Virus record (IMG/VR): IMGVR_UViG_3300007735_000469
Coordinates: 1 to 21,528 of that record
DNA: 21,528 nucleotides
Reading direction: 5' to 3' (one strand)
From: a virus
A program made the position numbers and the translations under genes. Within the stretch, counting starts at the first letter, position 1; each line of letters begins with the position of its first letter. The notes below the pieces were generated by a model, which saw only the letters and a list, made by a program, of their open reading frames with translations, ran no database searches and was not told the DNA's origin. Below are positions 7,103 through 14,347 of the stretch, piece after piece.

Positions 7103-8626
7103 TCAACTACCCATCCAACCTGTAGATACCGCCATAGGCTCAGAGTACCTGCGAGGGGCTGCCTCCCTGTACTCCCGATGCGCCACAGGGAACGCAAACG
7201 TCACACATATCGCATCCGCAGCGTCTGGACTGGCTAAACCCCGTGCTTTCATCTCTTTCTTGCTCTCCAAGAAGATCGTACCCCGTGAGTCAGGCTTCAT
7301 CAAGGGCGAGATCAGGTCTGTCTTTAAGAACCTATCCTGCGGAATACTAGCAGATTTGAGCCAGTCCTTCATGTCCCCCCACATCTGCGCCCTCATATTA
7401 CCGTACATGATTGGGTTTTTGGCCTTATTTCCAAAGTTTACACCCTTTATCTTGTACCGCTGCTCCTTGAGCCTGTCCACAATCCCCGCCCCCAGCCCAC
7501 CCTCATCTATTACCACCATTGCAGGCTTGTACTCCTCCATCGCCTCAATGATATGCCCCACCACCGTCATCGTATCGTCTCCCCGATACTTCTTCACAGC
7601 CACAATATCCCGGCCTTGACGTATAGCGATGACCGTAGCATCAGCCCCAAACCGCGCAGGGTCTACCCCAATGATGATGGGCGCACTCGCATCCTTGTAC
7701 TTCGGCCTTTTCATCGCTTCATCCACCACATCACTCGGTATAAACTGGTCATCCCCCGCCCGTGGAAACTCACCATACACCTCAACGTGCGCCTGAGCAC
7801 TGTCCGGCCCATATTCCGCAATAATTCGCTCGTAAACTTGTTTGTCCGTCCCCTCCACCGTCCTAGCATCCACCACCTTACTCACCCAAAAGTCCCGCTT
7901 TGAGTGAAATGTCTCATAAAAGTACCCCGTATTGCGCCGTGGGTTGGAAAACGCCAGCCAAAAGCGATTTGGCGTGTTTTCTGTGAAAAATCCACCCGTC
8001 ACCGCCCAGATGCTGTCGTCAATACCGCTTGCCTCATCAAAAATCACCAGCACACCATCAAAATTATGCACACCAGCATAAGCATCAGGATTTTCCGCTG
8101 ACCACAGCCGCCCCTCCACGCCCCAATACCTCGTACCCTTCTTCAAATCCCGCTCCACCAGCTCAGTCAACCACTTTGCAGGCGTCACCCGAGTGGCACT
8201 AACCTCAAACCAGTGACTGTTAATAGACATCGCCAGCCATTTGGTAATCTCAGCCCAGGTAATACTGCGTAGTTGGTTCTCTGAGTTGGCACTAATGATG
8301 GTCGTGCTGCCAATCCTAGTAGACAGCATCCATATCGTCAGCCATGACACCAATGCCGATTTACCAATACCTCGCCCAGAAGATACTGCTTCTTGGAGTA
8401 CTGAAAAGTTAACCTCGCCTTTATTCTTTGCAATATGCGCGGTAATGTCATTCAACACATCACGCTGCCATTTTCTTGGGCCAGAGAAATGCTCCAGCGG
8501 CGTACCCTTTTGACCCCAAGGGTAGCAATACATTACAAACGCCAGTGGATTATCTTTAAGGCTAGGCGACCAAAGCCTTGCCATTAACTCTTGCTCGTCC
8601 TCAGGTTTGTAGATAGTTGATTGCAT
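7103..8626 (-). CDS. terL: Terminase large subunit
   Basis: A 507-residue protein taken from the ATG at 8626 (MQSTIYKPEDEQELMARLW). The frame extends 21 codons further upstream but only from a TTG inside the small-subunit gene. The N-terminal ATPase has Walker A SSGRGIGKS (82-90), Walker B VLVIFDEAS (192-200, acidic D197/E198) and the coupling segment AFSNPRRNTG (225-234). The C-terminal RNase H-like nuclease has IIIGVDPARFG (D322), MVVIDEGG (D374) and SPDAADA (D468/D471), giving the metal-binding acidic set. The enzyme drives headful or cos packaging through the portal and cuts the concatemer. It overlaps the small subunit by 26 bases; the ribosome binding site is weak (GGG), so coupling is likely. 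Confidence 0.93.
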   Translation of the reverse strand: MQSTIYKPEDEQELMARLWSPSLKDNPLAFVMYCYPWGQKGTPLEHFSGPRKWQRDVLNDITAHIAKNKGEVNFSVLQEAVSSGRGIGKSALVSWLTIWMLSTRIGSTTIISANSENQLRSITWAEITKWLAMSINSHWFEVSATRVTPAKWLTELVERDLKKGTRYWGVEGRLWSAENPDAYAGVHNFDGVLVIFDEASGIDDSIWAVTGGFFTENTPNRFWLAFSNPRRNTGYFYETFHSKRDFWVSKVVDARTVEGTDKQVYERIIAEYGPDSAQAHVEVYGEFPRAGDDQFIPSDVVDEAMKRPKYKDASAPIIIGVDPARFGADATVIAIRQGRDIVAVKKYRGDDTMTVVGHIIEAMEEYKPAMVVIDEGGLGAGIVDRLKEQRYKIKGVNFGNKAKNPIMYGNMRAQMWGDMKDWLKSASIPQDRFLKTDLISPLMKPDSRGTIFLESKKEMKARGLASPDAADAICVTFAFPVAHREYREAAPRRYSEPMAVSTGWMGS

Positions 8627-8999
8627 CAATAACCCGTAGTTCAGCATCTTGCAACGCTTGCGTGATGCTGATGCGTTGGTCAACCTCAACAGTTATGGCT
8701 TGTTTGGCTACCCAACCATGCTGATGCTTGAGTATCTCTAGCGCCGCCTTAGCGTCGCCGTTGCGCGCTGCGTTGTGCAGTATGTCTGCTAATTCACGCT
8801 CGCCGTCTGCTTTGCCCTTCATAGCAGCCATCTCAACTACCGGGTCAAAGTTGCACAGCGCCAGGTACTCTTTGGGCAGCATACCGGCTGCAAGCGCCAG
8901 TGTCTCGCCGCGTAACCCTAGCCGTGCGGCTTCGTAGACGGCGGCTAACCGTGACTCTGTAGCCTTTAGCTCTCTAATTGATAGCGGGAATGACACCAT
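8601..8999 (-). CDS. terS: Terminase small subunit (probable)
   Basis: A 132-residue mostly helical protein. Residues of about 18-50 (YEAARLGLRGETLALAAGML...) look like a helix-turn-helix of the kind that binds the packaging site. Residues 60-95 (KADGERELADILHNAARNGDAKAALEILKHQHGW) are typical of the central helical part of small terminases. The identification rests on this pattern and on the 26-base overlap with the large terminase. The ATG at 8999 has no usable ribosome binding site: only ACGGGC separates it from a TATAAA box, so the transcript may be leaderless. No better in-frame start exists before residue 40. It is the first gene of the leftward packaging operon. Confidence 0.82.
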   Translation of the reverse strand: MVSFPLSIRELKATESRLAAVYEAARLGLRGETLALAAGMLPKEYLALCNFDPVVEMAAMKGKADGERELADILHNAARNGDAKAALEILKHQHGWVAKQAITVEVDQRISITQALQDAELRVIDAINYLQT

Positions 9000-9014: not shown

Positions 9015-9088
9015 TAAAAATAAAAATTGTTTGCGGACGCTCCGTAGCTGTGGCCCTAACCGCTCGGCCCTGCCCCCCTGGTCTCAGC

Positions 9089-9138
9089 GCCGGGCCGCGC
9101 GGCCGCCGGGCCGCGCTGGCCGCCGGGCCGCGCTGGCC
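9089..9138. repeat. 17-bp GC-rich tandem repeat, three copies
   Basis: The unit GCCGGGCCGCGCTGGCC occurs perfectly at 9105-9121 and 9122-9138. A third copy at 9089-9104 has lost one base. The unit is itself nearly palindromic around GGCC/GCGC, so each copy can fold. It lies in non-coding DNA; frames read across it are repeat artefacts. Confidence 0.9.
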
Positions 9139-9146
9139 GCGCAGCA

Positions 9147-9173
9147 TGTAGTCAATGTAGGCAATGTAGTCAT
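9147..9173 (+). repeat. 9-bp iteron array A (three tandem copies)
   Basis: Three head-to-tail 9-mers: TGTAGTCAA, TGTAGGCAA and TGTAGTCAT. A 27-bp block containing this array (9148-9174) is repeated perfectly at 9247-9273. Short tandem arrays of this kind are typical binding sites for an initiator or regulator protein. Confidence 0.85.
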
Positions 9174-9194
9174 CGTGTTCTAGTTGCTGGCCGC

Positions 9195-9241
9195 GCCATG
9201 CGGCCATGCGGCCATGCGGCCATGCGGCCATGCGGCCATGG
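9195..9241. repeat. 8-bp tandem repeat GCCATGCG, five copies plus a partial
   Basis: GCCATGCG is repeated perfectly at 9195, 9203, 9211, 9219 and 9227, followed by GCCATGG. The array is bounded by the inverted pair GCGCCATG (9193-9200) and CATGGCGC (9237-9244). It lies exactly between the two iteron arrays. An 8-bp unit in non-coding DNA is prone to slippage, so copy number may vary among relatives. Confidence 0.9.
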
Positions 9242-9245
9242 CGCG

Positions 9246-9272
9246 CGTAGTCAATGTAGGCAATGTAGTCAT
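9246..9272 (+). repeat. 9-bp iteron array B, second copy of array A
   Basis: The three 9-mers here are CGTAGTCAA, TGTAGGCAA and TGTAGTCAT. They are identical to array A except for the first base, with the same spacing and the same orientation, 99 bp downstream. An inverted single element, GCCTACA, follows at 9281-9287. Confidence 0.85.
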
Positions 9273-9334
9273 CTTTTTTGGCCTACAAAATCCGCGCTGG
9301 AAACGTGATCGGCGCGCTCCCAGGTTAACTTATG

Positions 9335-9350
9335 CTGTATATATATACAG
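9335..9350. promoter_or_regulatory. LexA-type (SOS box) palindrome
   Basis: CTGTATATATATACAG is a perfect 16-bp palindrome and matches the core of the Escherichia coli LexA consensus (CTGT, eight AT-alternating bases, ACAG). It sits in the most AT-rich part of the intergenic region, about 33 bases before a ribosome binding site and a 15-codon frame, and upstream of the whole rightward operon. LexA binding is inferred from the match. A phage-encoded repressor or a purely structural AT-rich element are alternatives. Confidence 0.65.
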
Positions 9351-9382
9351 TATATATCTCTCACCTAATTAAGAGGAAAACT

Positions 9383-9430
9383 ATGACTACATTAACTACA
9401 AACACCATAATCCCCTCTGTGCGAGCGTAG
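9383..9430 (+). CDS. Possible 15-codon leader peptide downstream of the LexA-type box
   Basis: ATG at 9383 is preceded by AGAGGA at a good distance and encodes MTTLTTNTIIPSVRA before TAG. The start region overlaps two copies of the ACTACA motif. The peptide is too short for homology arguments and the start may simply be fortuitous. If translated it would be the first product of the rightward transcript, perhaps acting as a leader. The 150 bases between it and the next gene contain no convincing longer frame. Confidence 0.3.
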   Translation: MTTLTTNTIIPSVRA

Positions 9431-9451
9431 TCAACCACGCCCGAAACCATG

Positions 9452-9479
9452 GACTACAAACAAGCCTACATTGACTACA
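9452..9479 (-). repeat. Inverted iterons
   Basis: GACTACA at 9452-9458, GCCTACATT at 9464-9472 and GACTACA at 9473-9479 are the reverse complement of the 9-bp iterons, in the same order and with the same 9-bp step for the last pair. Further single elements occur at 9385-9391 (GACTACA, inverted) and 9425-9433 (CGTAGTCAA, direct). The iterons thus flank the LexA-type palindrome in opposite orientations. Confidence 0.75.
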
Positions 9480-9512
9480 ACGTACTAAGGGTAAACACCT
9501 AGAAAATAATTG

Positions 9513-9563
9513 TTGACGTGTTACGAACTATGTTACGCTACACGCACTGTCTAATTCGGACAG
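9513..9563 (+). promoter_or_regulatory. Probable control region before the DUF7227-like gene
   Basis: This stretch has a -35-like TTGACG (9513-9518), a direct repeat of TGTTACG (9519-9525 and 9531-9537, 12-bp step) and an inverted repeat CTGTC...GACAG (9547-9563). No convincing -10 box stands at the right distance, so the promoter is only a suggestion. The repeats look like protein-binding sites. The inverted repeat has CTGT and ACAG spaced by nine bases, one more than a standard LexA box. Confidence 0.35.
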
Positions 9564-9584: not shown

Positions 9585-10244
9585 ATGCAAGTACATTTGA
9601 CAATCAAGTCAGCGAACGCGAAAACCGGCCCGATCCCGGTTAGCACCACCACCAGCGCATCATGCCCGCCGGGCTGCGCTATGCGCGCTGAGTGCTACGC
9701 GGCCAGTGGCCCTCTGGCCCTACACTGGCGCGCTGTTAGCGCTGGCCAGCGCGGCACGGACTGGCCGACGTTTACCAAATCAATAGCGGCGCTACCGCCC
9801 GGCCAATTGTGGCGCCACAATCAAGCTGGCGACCTGCCACAGCGCGACGGCACTATCGACGCCGCCGCGCTCGGCCAGCTGGTGGCCGCGAATACCGGGC
9901 GGCGCGGGTTTACTTATTCGCACCACCGCGACACGGCCAGCATCAATTGGATTCGCCATGCCAATGCATGGGGGTTTACAGTTAACCTAAGCGCCAATGA
10001 CCTAAACGACGCCGACGCGCTGGCCGACCACGCCGCCGGGCCGGTGGTGGTGGTGTTGCCGTCAACCACCACGGCCAACACCACCACGCCAGCCGGCCGG
10101 CCCGTTATCGTTTGTCCGGCGACTCAGCGCGCCGACGTATCGTGCGCCACTTGCCAGCTGTGCCAGCGTCAGCGCGCGGCCATTGTCGGGTTCCCGGCTC
10201 ACGGCTCACGCCACCGGGTTATCAACCTGCGGCTCGCGGCCTAA
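9585..10244 (+). CDS. DUF7227-like cysteine-rich phage protein
   Basis: A 219-residue protein. The segments NAKTGPIPVSTTTSASCPPGC, GPLALHWR, LPPGQLWRHNQAGDLP, RRGFTYSHH, FTVNLSAN, VVVVLP and ATQRADVSCATCQLCQ are those of a conserved phage family I know as DUF7227, related to the Gp88 type; no biochemical function is established. Seven cysteines fall in two groups, C27/C31/C37 at the N-terminus and C177/C187/C190/C193 near the C-terminus. This suggests a zinc or iron-sulphur site joining both ends of a beta/alpha fold. The ATG has AAAGGA seven bases upstream. It is the first substantial gene of the rightward operon, which suggests early expression. The DNA is very GC-rich compared with the structural genes. 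Confidence 0.8.
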   Translation: MQVHLTIKSANAKTGPIPVSTTTSASCPPGCAMRAECYAASGPLALHWRAVSAGQRGTDWPTFTKSIAALPPGQLWRHNQAGDLPQRDGTIDAAALGQLVAANTGRRGFTYSHHRDTASINWIRHANAWGFTVNLSANDLNDADALADHAAGPVVVVLPSTTTANTTTPAGRPVIVCPATQRADVSCATCQLCQRQRAAIVGFPAHGSRHRVINLRLAA

Positions 10245-12070: not shown

Positions 12071-14347
12071 TCAGGCTACAGTTCGGCGCATATCGGACTT
12101 CGATAGCCCGGCCACGTCCGGCGCCACGAAGATATGCTTTTTGGACGGGAACTCGCGGGAGGTCAGGCGCCCCATGTCGAGCCAACCGGCCTCACGCAAG
12201 GCGTGGAACAGGGCGGCCTGGACAATCTTAACCCCGGGCGCTGCGGCGCCTGACCCCTGCACCCGGTCGCACACGACGTGAAACGGCGAGCCGATGACGC
12301 CAGCCGCGAACGGGCCACGGCGCTCGCGCATCATCTCGACCAGCACCGACTCGGCGGTGCTCATGCCGGCCTCGACCATGATGGACTTAGCCTCGGTCAT
12401 CGGCGGCGGCGCCGACGGGTTGAAAGCGGATACGTCACGGGCCATCAGCCACGCCGCCACGCCAGCGAAGCCGCCCCGGTGGTGATACCAGTTCCAAAGG
12501 GCCACGGCCTCGGCCTCCGGGAGGCGCCCGGCCTCGGCCCAGATGACGAACCATCGGCGGTCGTCCGAGGGCAACGATATCGCCACGCGCTCATTACTGA
12601 AGGCGACCACCAGCACTCGGTTGAGGGCCATGTACGGATGCAGACCCTTTCTGTTGATGGGCAAGTATTCGGGCGGGGCGGCGATGACGGGCTTGAGGTG
12701 GTTCTCGAGGGCGCGGCGGTCCTTGGCCTCGGCCTGGCGCAGCTCGGCGATTTCCATGACCTCGCACTCAAGGCCGTAGCCCCACTGCGACGTCAGGTCG
12801 TCGTTTTTGACGATAGAACAATTGATCTTAGCGGGGCCACCAACGGCCCAGAAGAACGGGGCCAGCAGGGTGTCCTTGCCGGAGCCGGGCTTGCCGCCCA
12901 GCAGCACGGCGTGGTTGATCTTGTGGCTGGGGTACTGCACCTTGTGCGCCAGCACGTTCAGGAGATGCTCGCGCTCGAACTCGACCGGAACCATGCGCTC
13001 AGCGTGACGCAGCCACTGGCTCACGTCACAGGCCACGGGCGCCGGGCGAGCGTCGCGCCAGCGGTTGCCGTAAACTAGGCCATCCTTGGCGACCAGCACC
13101 GACTCGCCAGCGGCGTAGGTGATGCCGACCAGAGCCTTGGCGCCAGAGTCCCGCCGGTTCTCGTCAAAGCAGACACTGGCCTCGACCCTCCGGGCCGACT
13201 TGCCGGTTGAGTGAATGGAGATGCACTTGATGTGACGAAACAGGGCGTTGAAGGTGTTGCGCGACAACTCGCGCCTGTCCTGCATATCAAAGAACGCCTC
13301 GTCGTCCTGGAGGTACGCAAAGCGGGAATACCAACCCGACTTCTCAACGCGGCCCAACTCCTTGCGCTCGACCTCGGCGATGACTTGTGCAGCCGCATCG
13401 GGATACTCAGGGCTGGGCTTGAGCTTGGCAAGGGCCAACTCAAGATGCGAGGCCATCAGGTCGTCACGCAGGCCGGGGGCGTGACGGGGGCCATTGTTCT
13501 CGGCGACCCACGCCAGAAACGAGTTGCTGTCCAAATCGACACAATGGCCGTGCATACAGCAGAACGCCCTGTTCAGGGGCATATAACGGCCCTCGGGGTT
13601 GCCGTCGGTATGCTCGCTTGAATTAGGACAGACGACCCCGGCCCAGCCCTCGGCGTTCGGGCGACTGAGCAGCAGCCCCTGACCCGAGAGCCAGAGCAGC
13701 ACATCGTCGGCGCCATCGTCAGACATCCGAATCGGGCGGGGGCCGGAGGACTCGGCCGGGCCGGGCACGACCTCAAGGGCGGCGCAGATGTCGGCCAGTG
13801 TGAACTCGCGGCCTGGGTGGAACTCAACCAACGCAGACGCAAATTGGCCCTTGTCGGGCTTGAGGTTGACCGACCCCGGCAGTCGGAAATTGCGAACCGG
13901 GTTGCAGGCGCCGGGGTCGGTGTAGCCAGCAGCGGCGATAGCCTTGATGGCGGCGGCGAACTCGCCCTTAGGCGGCTGTTCGCTGAAGACGTAGCCCCAC
14001 TGATAGTTGCCAACACTAGTCTCCATGACCCAAGTCGGCGGCAGCGGCGGGGTCTTGCTCTTGGAACCAATGTCATCCAGCACCATCACGGCGCAGTACT
14101 CACAATTGGCTGACGACGCCGACACCCGCCCGTCTTGGAAGCGGTCTACGATGAAGCTGGCGGTGTTGCCGTACCAAGCCTCGCCAGCCCGGACGCCGTG
14201 CGAGGGCAGGTAGGCAGGCCATGTGGCCTTGATTGCGCCATCGGCGTGGTACTGCGCCTCGCCGCCACGCATCTGTGGTTTCTGGCGCACAAACAGCATT
14301 GTTTCGCCCTCGGGCGCAAGCGCCGTGATAAACTCTAAAAATTGCAC
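12071..14347 (-). CDS. Primase-helicase (AEP-like primase plus SF3-type helicase)
   Basis: A 758-residue protein with a GTG start, supported by a perfect AAAGGAGG five bases upstream. The N-terminal third looks like a primase-polymerase domain: VMVLDDIGSK (D91/D92), WVMETSVGNYQWGYVF (106-121) and VRNFRLPGSVNLKP (151-164). Residues 240-269 hold Cys and His (C240, H246, C263, C264, H266, H268, C269), probably a zinc ribbon. The C-terminal helicase has Walker A LLGGKPGSGKDTL (482-494), an acidic VMEIAEL (530-536) and a VVAFSNE sensor (580-586) followed by DDRRWFVIW, as in superfamily 3 / DUF5906 proteins. It would unwind and prime phage DNA for the neighbouring polymerase. Confidence 0.85.
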   Translation of the reverse strand: MQFLEFITALAPEGETMLFVRQKPQMRGGEAQYHADGAIKATWPAYLPSHGVRAGEAWYGNTASFIVDRFQDGRVSASSANCEYCAVMVLDDIGSKSKTPPLPPTWVMETSVGNYQWGYVFSEQPPKGEFAAAIKAIAAAGYTDPGACNPVRNFRLPGSVNLKPDKGQFASALVEFHPGREFTLADICAALEVVPGPAESSGPRPIRMSDDGADDVLLWLSGQGLLLSRPNAEGWAGVVCPNSSEHTDGNPEGRYMPLNRAFCCMHGHCVDLDSNSFLAWVAENNGPRHAPGLRDDLMASHLELALAKLKPSPEYPDAAAQVIAEVERKELGRVEKSGWYSRFAYLQDDEAFFDMQDRRELSRNTFNALFRHIKCISIHSTGKSARRVEASVCFDENRRDSGAKALVGITYAAGESVLVAKDGLVYGNRWRDARPAPVACDVSQWLRHAERMVPVEFEREHLLNVLAHKVQYPSHKINHAVLLGGKPGSGKDTLLAPFFWAVGGPAKINCSIVKNDDLTSQWGYGLECEVMEIAELRQAEAKDRRALENHLKPVIAAPPEYLPINRKGLHPYMALNRVLVVAFSNERVAISLPSDDRRWFVIWAEAGRLPEAEAVALWNWYHHRGGFAGVAAWLMARDVSAFNPSAPPPMTEAKSIMVEAGMSTAESVLVEMMRERRGPFAAGVIGSPFHVVCDRVQGSGAAAPGVKIVQAALFHALREAGWLDMGRLTSREFPSKKHIFVAPDVAGLSKSDMRRTVA

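Follow-up and report, generated by a model that had tools for sequence, protein, structure and literature searches.

Among described replication origins, the nearest known layout is that of the SaPI/PICI satellites. As they are presented in PMC7581432 (citing Ubeda 2007) and PMC6092414, the presumed melting site is AT-rich and stands between two sets of short iterons, and the initiator is a helicase, sometimes fused to a primase, whose C-terminal domain recognises the iterons, which differ between elements. Such a layout is said to be without parallel among the other known bacterial replicons. Single proteins of related architecture are known from other elements. The alpha protein of phage P4 joins a TOPRIM-type primase, an SF3-type helicase and a winged-helix domain, the latter binding the origin repeats, and ORF904 of plasmid pRN1 joins an archaeo-eukaryotic-type primase, an SF3 helicase and a C-terminal winged helix, acting at a stem-loop origin without iterons (PMC4234260). 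The primase-polymerase of phage NrS-1 is associated with two copies of an 8-nt polymerase recognition sequence, and no origin binding by a winged helix is reported in the passages of PMC7102993 consulted.

In this study, we analyzed the entire virus record IMGVR_UViG_3300007735_000469 of IMG/VR (21,528 bp, hereafter the window). It encodes a large terminase, a portal, tail proteins, a DNA polymerase, an exonuclease and a primase-helicase, and is thus a tailed phage rather than a satellite. An earlier note, made from its sequence alone, had pointed to repeats at 9147-9479 as a candidate replication origin or regulatory switch. Comparison with relatives makes it highly probable that this region is the replication origin of the phage, bound by its own primase-helicase via the C-terminal winged helix, the wing tip (residues 727-734) reading the bases. 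Like the PICI/SaPI origins, it has two iteron sets around an AT-rich site, iterons varying between elements, and a putative C-terminal recognition domain, whose binding is here deduced from covariation. It would work like a PICI-type origin without being one, since it does not directly follow the 3' end of the initiator gene, as in PICI/SaPI, but lies about 2.6 kb away with other genes between, and since its carrier has its own structural genes. It also differs by its 9-bp tandem units, and by the LexA-type dyad found in many relatives.

Iteron arrays of the window and of related phages

With at most one mismatch in the first eight bases, 13 copies of the 9-mer were found in the 333 bp of the region, 7 direct and 6 inverted, arranged as two direct triplets, two inverted pairs with a 9-bp step and three singles (Table 1). 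An AT-rich stretch containing the dyad separates the direct triplets from the inverted pairs. Most of this had been seen in the earlier note, with some inaccuracies. The two three-copy arrays lie where it placed them but are not identical (26 of 27 bases match, the difference being in the first copy of the second array); the inverted copies with a 9-bp step at the right end are there, as are three of the additional single copies, but the copy placed at 9385 belongs to an overlooked inverted pair. Similarly, the AT-rich element does lie between the arrays but is only the third, not the most, AT-rich 60-bp stretch of the window. The position between divergent transcription units holds true, the small terminase-like gene (TerS) being on the minus strand and the DUF7227 gene on the plus strand. 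Exact matches to TGTAGKCAW number 7 in the 21.5-kb window, for 0.43 expected (none of 100 shuffles reached 7), and all of them fall in the array region, with no exact iteron copy elsewhere in the window. The exact 26-mer of the array was found in no other viral contig in the contig search. GC skew showed no sharp change at the array region, and hence no origin mark.

Table 1. Position of the features of the putative origin region and of the genes discussed in the text (window coordinates).
Feature	Position	Strand	Remarks
Small terminase-like gene (TerS)	8601-8999	-	Left flank of the arrays; unrelated in close relatives L082-L084
Direct iteron array 1 (TGTAGTCAA TGTAGGCAA TGTAGTCAT)	9147-9173	+	3 copies, 9-bp step
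GC-rich 8-bp tandem repeat (GCGGCCAT)	9190-9240		Spacer between direct arrays
Direct iteron array 2 (first copy CGTAGTCAA)	9246-9272	+	3 copies
Single inverted iteron (TGTAGGCCA)	9279-9287	-	1 mismatch
AT-rich element	9325-9384		Presumed unwinding element; 25% GC over 60 bp
LexA-type dyad (CTGTATATATATACAG)	9335-9350		Within AT-rich element
Inverted iteron pair	9383-9400 (9383-9391 and 9392-9400)	-	9-bp step; in relatives, kept at ~40-45 bp to the right of the dyad
Single direct iteron (CGTAGTCAA)	9426-9434	+	
Single inverted iteron (TGTAGTCCA)	9450-9458	-	
Inverted iteron pair	9462-9479 (9462-9470 and 9471-9479)	-	9-bp step
DUF7227 gene	9585-10244	+	Right flank of the arrays; undetected in 26/34 close relatives
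Primase-helicase	12071-14347	-	RepB-type primase N-terminal domain (weak match), DUF5906 helicase domain, C-terminal winged helix; proposed initiator
C-terminal winged-helix domain (residues 664-757)	12077-12358	-	AlphaFold2 models; proposed iteron-binding domain
Codons 727-752	12092-12169	-	Sole primase part with perfectly separating columns; replaced as a block between sister phages
Wing codons 727-734 (RLTSREFP)	12146-12169	-	Proposed specificity determinant

About 400 loci of related phages were gathered via searches with TerL, DUF7227 and the primase. An automatic search for units downstream of the primase returned one in 269 of 330 loci and none in the other 61; the choice of unit fails in some loci, and the tests below use the 188 loci with distinct primases and usable units. 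In these related freshwater phages, layout and 9-bp step are the same and the repeat sequence is replaced by lineage: the TerS-DUF7227 intergenic region recurrently contains arrays of 2-3 copies, with units such as TGTGTGTCA, TGTGGACAA and TTTGGGTCA in place of the TGTAGTCAA of the window. Direct copies are mostly on the left and inverted copies mostly on the right of the AT minimum in 142 of the 188 relatives (the reverse order is found in 9), and an AT-rich minimum is kept between the two. Neighbouring copies are spaced by 9 bp in 375 cases, by 8 bp in 19 and by 10 bp in 14, and the distance from array to primase is ~2-4 kb. Conservation of the step and of both orientations, proposed in the earlier note as a check, is therefore observed. 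Loss of arrays or spacing next to retained flanking genes, which it had named as evidence against its proposal, is not seen in most relatives, where the repeat sequence changes and the spacing stays.

The same layout is present in a named GenBank phage, MW202483.1 (L411, 9990-10210), with TGTTGGTAG units at a 9-bp step and inverted ACTACCAA copies across an AT-rich stretch; its primase, annotated as virulence associated protein E, is 50% identical to that of the window. In the named phage record DSL-LC05, no 9-bp array was detected by the scan used. Several other repeats accompany the iterons. GC-rich tandem-repeat spacers of unit GCGGCCAT flank the direct arrays of the window (9084-9142 in addition to the spacer of Table 1), and the spacer unit is lineage-specific, being GCGCACCAGGTA, AGCCGGTC or GGCAGG in relatives (L129, L148, L152, L153 and L157). 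Five relatives (L126, L129, L085, L158, L091) have a second array near the start of TerS, at the left end of the intergenic region (TGTGGGTCA TGTGGGCAA TGTGGGC), distinct from their main array, whose unit is TGTGGACAA. A motif, AAGTTAGTG, recurs next to the iterons, in several copies and both orientations, in the intergenic regions of L088, L099, L110, L134, L149 and L160, and that of L109 contains tandem TTGTCAAA units with an 8-bp step instead of 9 bp (at 123-143 and 388-407 of that region).

Joint switching of iteron type and primase wing

The DUF5906 domain of the primase-helicase matches its Pfam family above the cut-off, which assigns this domain to the helicases of the SF3-type primase-helicase initiators (NrS-1, SaPI PriRep, D5 group), and the N-terminal part of the protein matches RepB_primase weakly (20.4 bits, for a cut-off of 24.3), unlike P4 alpha with its TOPRIM-type primase. 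In AlphaFold2 models, the domain that follows the helicase contains helices 664-674, 689-699 and 710-720, strands 723-728 and 737-741, and a last helix. This order of helices and strands, at a pLDDT of 92, predicts a winged-helix fold, in which residues 727-734 would form the wing tip. The longer model gave fold matches with NrS-1 primase-polymerase (E 1e-13), with SaPI PriRep1 bound to DNA (E 6e-7) and with poxvirus D5-group helicases; as the profile match of the helicase part to NrS-1 also has an E of 8e-12, NrS-1 (PDB 6k9c) is its nearest solved relative, followed by SaPI PriRep1 with DNA. The presumed combination of domains also recalls P4 alpha and pRN1 ORF904, with iterons being the main feature here in contrast to pRN1, and iteron arrays instead of the two recognition copies of NrS-1. 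The isolated winged-helix model had no significant match in the PDB (best E 0.056, with a winged-helix replication terminator), and no sequence match or significant fold match to P4 was found for this domain.

Judged by sequence comparison, the iteron type follows one protein, the primase-helicase. In a whole and partial distance-matrix test, correlations were obtained for helicase windows and TerS as well, and the winged helix did not stand out. Clade structure made this test non-discriminating, as units differ between the clades of the family, and we thus turned to a contrast within one clade and to matched pairs. The within-clade set consists of 34 primases, mostly 86-93% identical to that of the window, from 8 phages with TGTAGTCA and 26 with TGTGTG(T/C)CA iterons. 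Among the 758 columns, 10 separate the two types perfectly, and all are within residues 727-752 (727, 728, 729, 734, 744, 745, 746, 748, 750 and 752). On a tree of primase residues 1-680, well-supported branches impose at least 4 switches of iteron type, and a single type change was not obtained in any bootstrap tree. On this tree the window is sister to L303, which has the other iteron type. The DNA identity of the two genes is 0.78-0.96 per block over codons 1-720 and drops to 0.64 in the final 38 (721-758). In this part, the closest match to each sister comes from a phage that shares its iteron type, indicating that the end of the primase gene was replaced as a block.

Next, the contrast was extended to the 188 loci, by comparing pairs 75-98.5% identical over residues 1-680 with the same or different units, matched by identity. 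Column 729 scored highest (0.75), followed by 732 and 734, for region means of -0.01 to 0.03 over residues 1-722. All 35 loci with TGTGGA/TGTGGT iterons have K729 together with D/E734, and among 12 phylogenetically independent pairs for this signature, about 8 were concordant and none opposite (median p 0.008). Even phages less than 70% identical had the same unit in 58 of 135 pairs when sharing residues 729, 732 and 734, versus 1044 of 9489, and eight control residue triplets elsewhere gave 0-7% of unit sharing. Wing and iteron do not correspond one-to-one: the K729 wing of L111 goes with TTTGGGTCA, L146 combines TGTGGG units with a wing resembling that of the TGTTGGC group, and both A and G are found at the sixth iteron base of K-type phages. 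As the helix preceding the wing is nearly invariant across iteron types, specificity appears to be carried by the wing rather than by this helix. Recognition of iterons by the C-terminal domain, as in PICI/SaPI, is suggested here by covariation. Among the candidate binders listed in the earlier note, the primase-helicase is thus the one whose C-terminal winged helix covaries tightly with repeat type, from which we infer binding.

Probable functional coupling and rival readings

The array and the 3' end of the primase gene face each other ~2.6 kb apart, and one recombination tract could carry both. Recombination is clearly how these pieces move. Coupling of the arrays and primase end through function is nevertheless the better reading of the sequence data than linkage, given the genes lying around or between them: the DUF7227 gene is undetected in most close relatives, g11185 is present in 32 of 34 without any type-separating column, and TerS differs. 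No perfectly separating column was found in g11501, g11562 or g10741, and the one found in g11535 concerns a gene present in only 3 of 8 and 15 of 26 phages of the two types. Gene g11982 does separate the types, owing to its overlap with the primase end on the opposite strand.

The same comparisons bear on what binds the repeats. A packaging site (pac/cos) bound by the small terminase would account for arrays adjacent to terS and for the correlation of TerS distances with iteron distances, and a terminase ring might accept 9-bp sites arranged head to tail. The iteron type tracks the primase wing and not other genes, however, and phages L082-L084, with a TerS-like gene unrelated to that of the window, have unchanged TGTAGTCA arrays in the same layout. 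The repeat type thus does not follow the small terminase, which argues against this protein, another of the binders listed in the earlier note, and we regard a packaging site as very improbable. Just as improbable is a genetic switch without origin function, in which the repeats would be a multi-site operator for a phage repressor; the divergent genes on both sides and the mixture of direct and inverted sites are what such a switch would show, but no small regulator follows iteron type among the testable genes between array and primase, the only gene tracking it being the primase, with its antisense g11982. As for the repeats being copies of a short coding start (ATGACTACATT...), with 9 bp standing for three codons, the inverted pair of the window can be read as the beginning of a 15-codon frame that has a plausible ribosome site. 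In relatives with other units (L117), frame and ATG are absent while the layout persists, so that this idea was rejected, and we give it practically no credence.

Proposed initiation and the LexA-type dyad

An origin bound by the primase-helicase is the reading that we retain, because iteron type follows the primase wing and neither the intervening genes nor TerS. The origin proposal of the earlier note is strengthened by the conserved layout with lineage-specific repeats in the 188 relatives and by the covariation of repeat type with the winged helix. The repeats are very probably, on this comparative ground, docking sites for the phage's own replication starter protein. By analogy with the SaPI/PICI and P4 systems, initiator subunits would bind the 9-bp iterons through the winged helix, the wing tip reading their base sequence. 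Helicase rings facing each other could then be loaded on either side of the AT-rich element, by the direct sites to its left and the inverted sites to its right; the element would melt, and the primase-helicase or the phage polymerase would prime synthesis at the replication forks.

The LexA-type palindrome that had been noticed in the AT-rich part is an exact dyad, and the only CTGT-N8-ACAG of the window. This pattern matches the LexA consensus of E. coli. Among the 188 relatives, exact dyads occur 55 times in 109 kb of array regions and 17 times in 907 kb outside, a 27-fold enrichment, and control orders of the arm letters occur 0-7 times inside array regions. The arms are constant and the middle 8 bases vary; the usual position is directly before the AT-rich stretch, followed by the inverted pair. 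This would fit a working LexA operator by which the SOS state of the host controls either the origin or a promoter within it, alongside the initiator arrays. Against it, exact dyads were counted in just 55 of the 188 relatives, L083 has none at its AT-rich element, the dyads of L083 and L277 being elsewhere, and no consensus-matching promoter overlaps the dyad in the window. We therefore hold a LexA operator to be plausible, though short of probable, and a regulatory role of the dyad alongside origin function to be possible. A literature search of partial coverage did not reveal any publication describing LexA sites within the iteron origins of phages of this kind.

A satellite-type layout is thus found within a large family of tailed phages, where, as far as sequences tell, the repeats and a small loop of the initiator change together in ~190 members. 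These would provide dozens of natural matched initiator-origin pairs differing at a handful of wing residues. With such pairs, it becomes possible to test how DNA is read by the wing of a winged helix, and how specificity can change jointly in an initiator and in over 10 distant sites, origin and starter protein staying matched. A broader proposal, which we put forward tentatively, is that satellite-type origins are maintained in a large family of free-living phages, with recognition in the wing tip and not in the recognition helix, and that these phages change specificity by swapping a cassette of at most ~38 codons plus the whole distant iteron set; such swapping may create replication-incompatibility groups, and an embedded LexA operator would, in many of them, tie replication start to the host SOS state.

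Other dyads were seen nearby. In L083 (~3.9-4.7 kb), L082 and L084, where the unrelated TerS-like gene occupies the equivalent place, a CTGTACATCCATACAG dyad lies on its far side, between this gene and TerL, and L277 has a similar dyad between TerS and TerL. Finally, at the place equivalent to 9512-9560 of the window, relatives have, upstream of the rightward genes, TTGACA and then TGTAAGG-N5-CCTTACA, a promoter-like element with an overlapping dyad, which is degenerate in the window.
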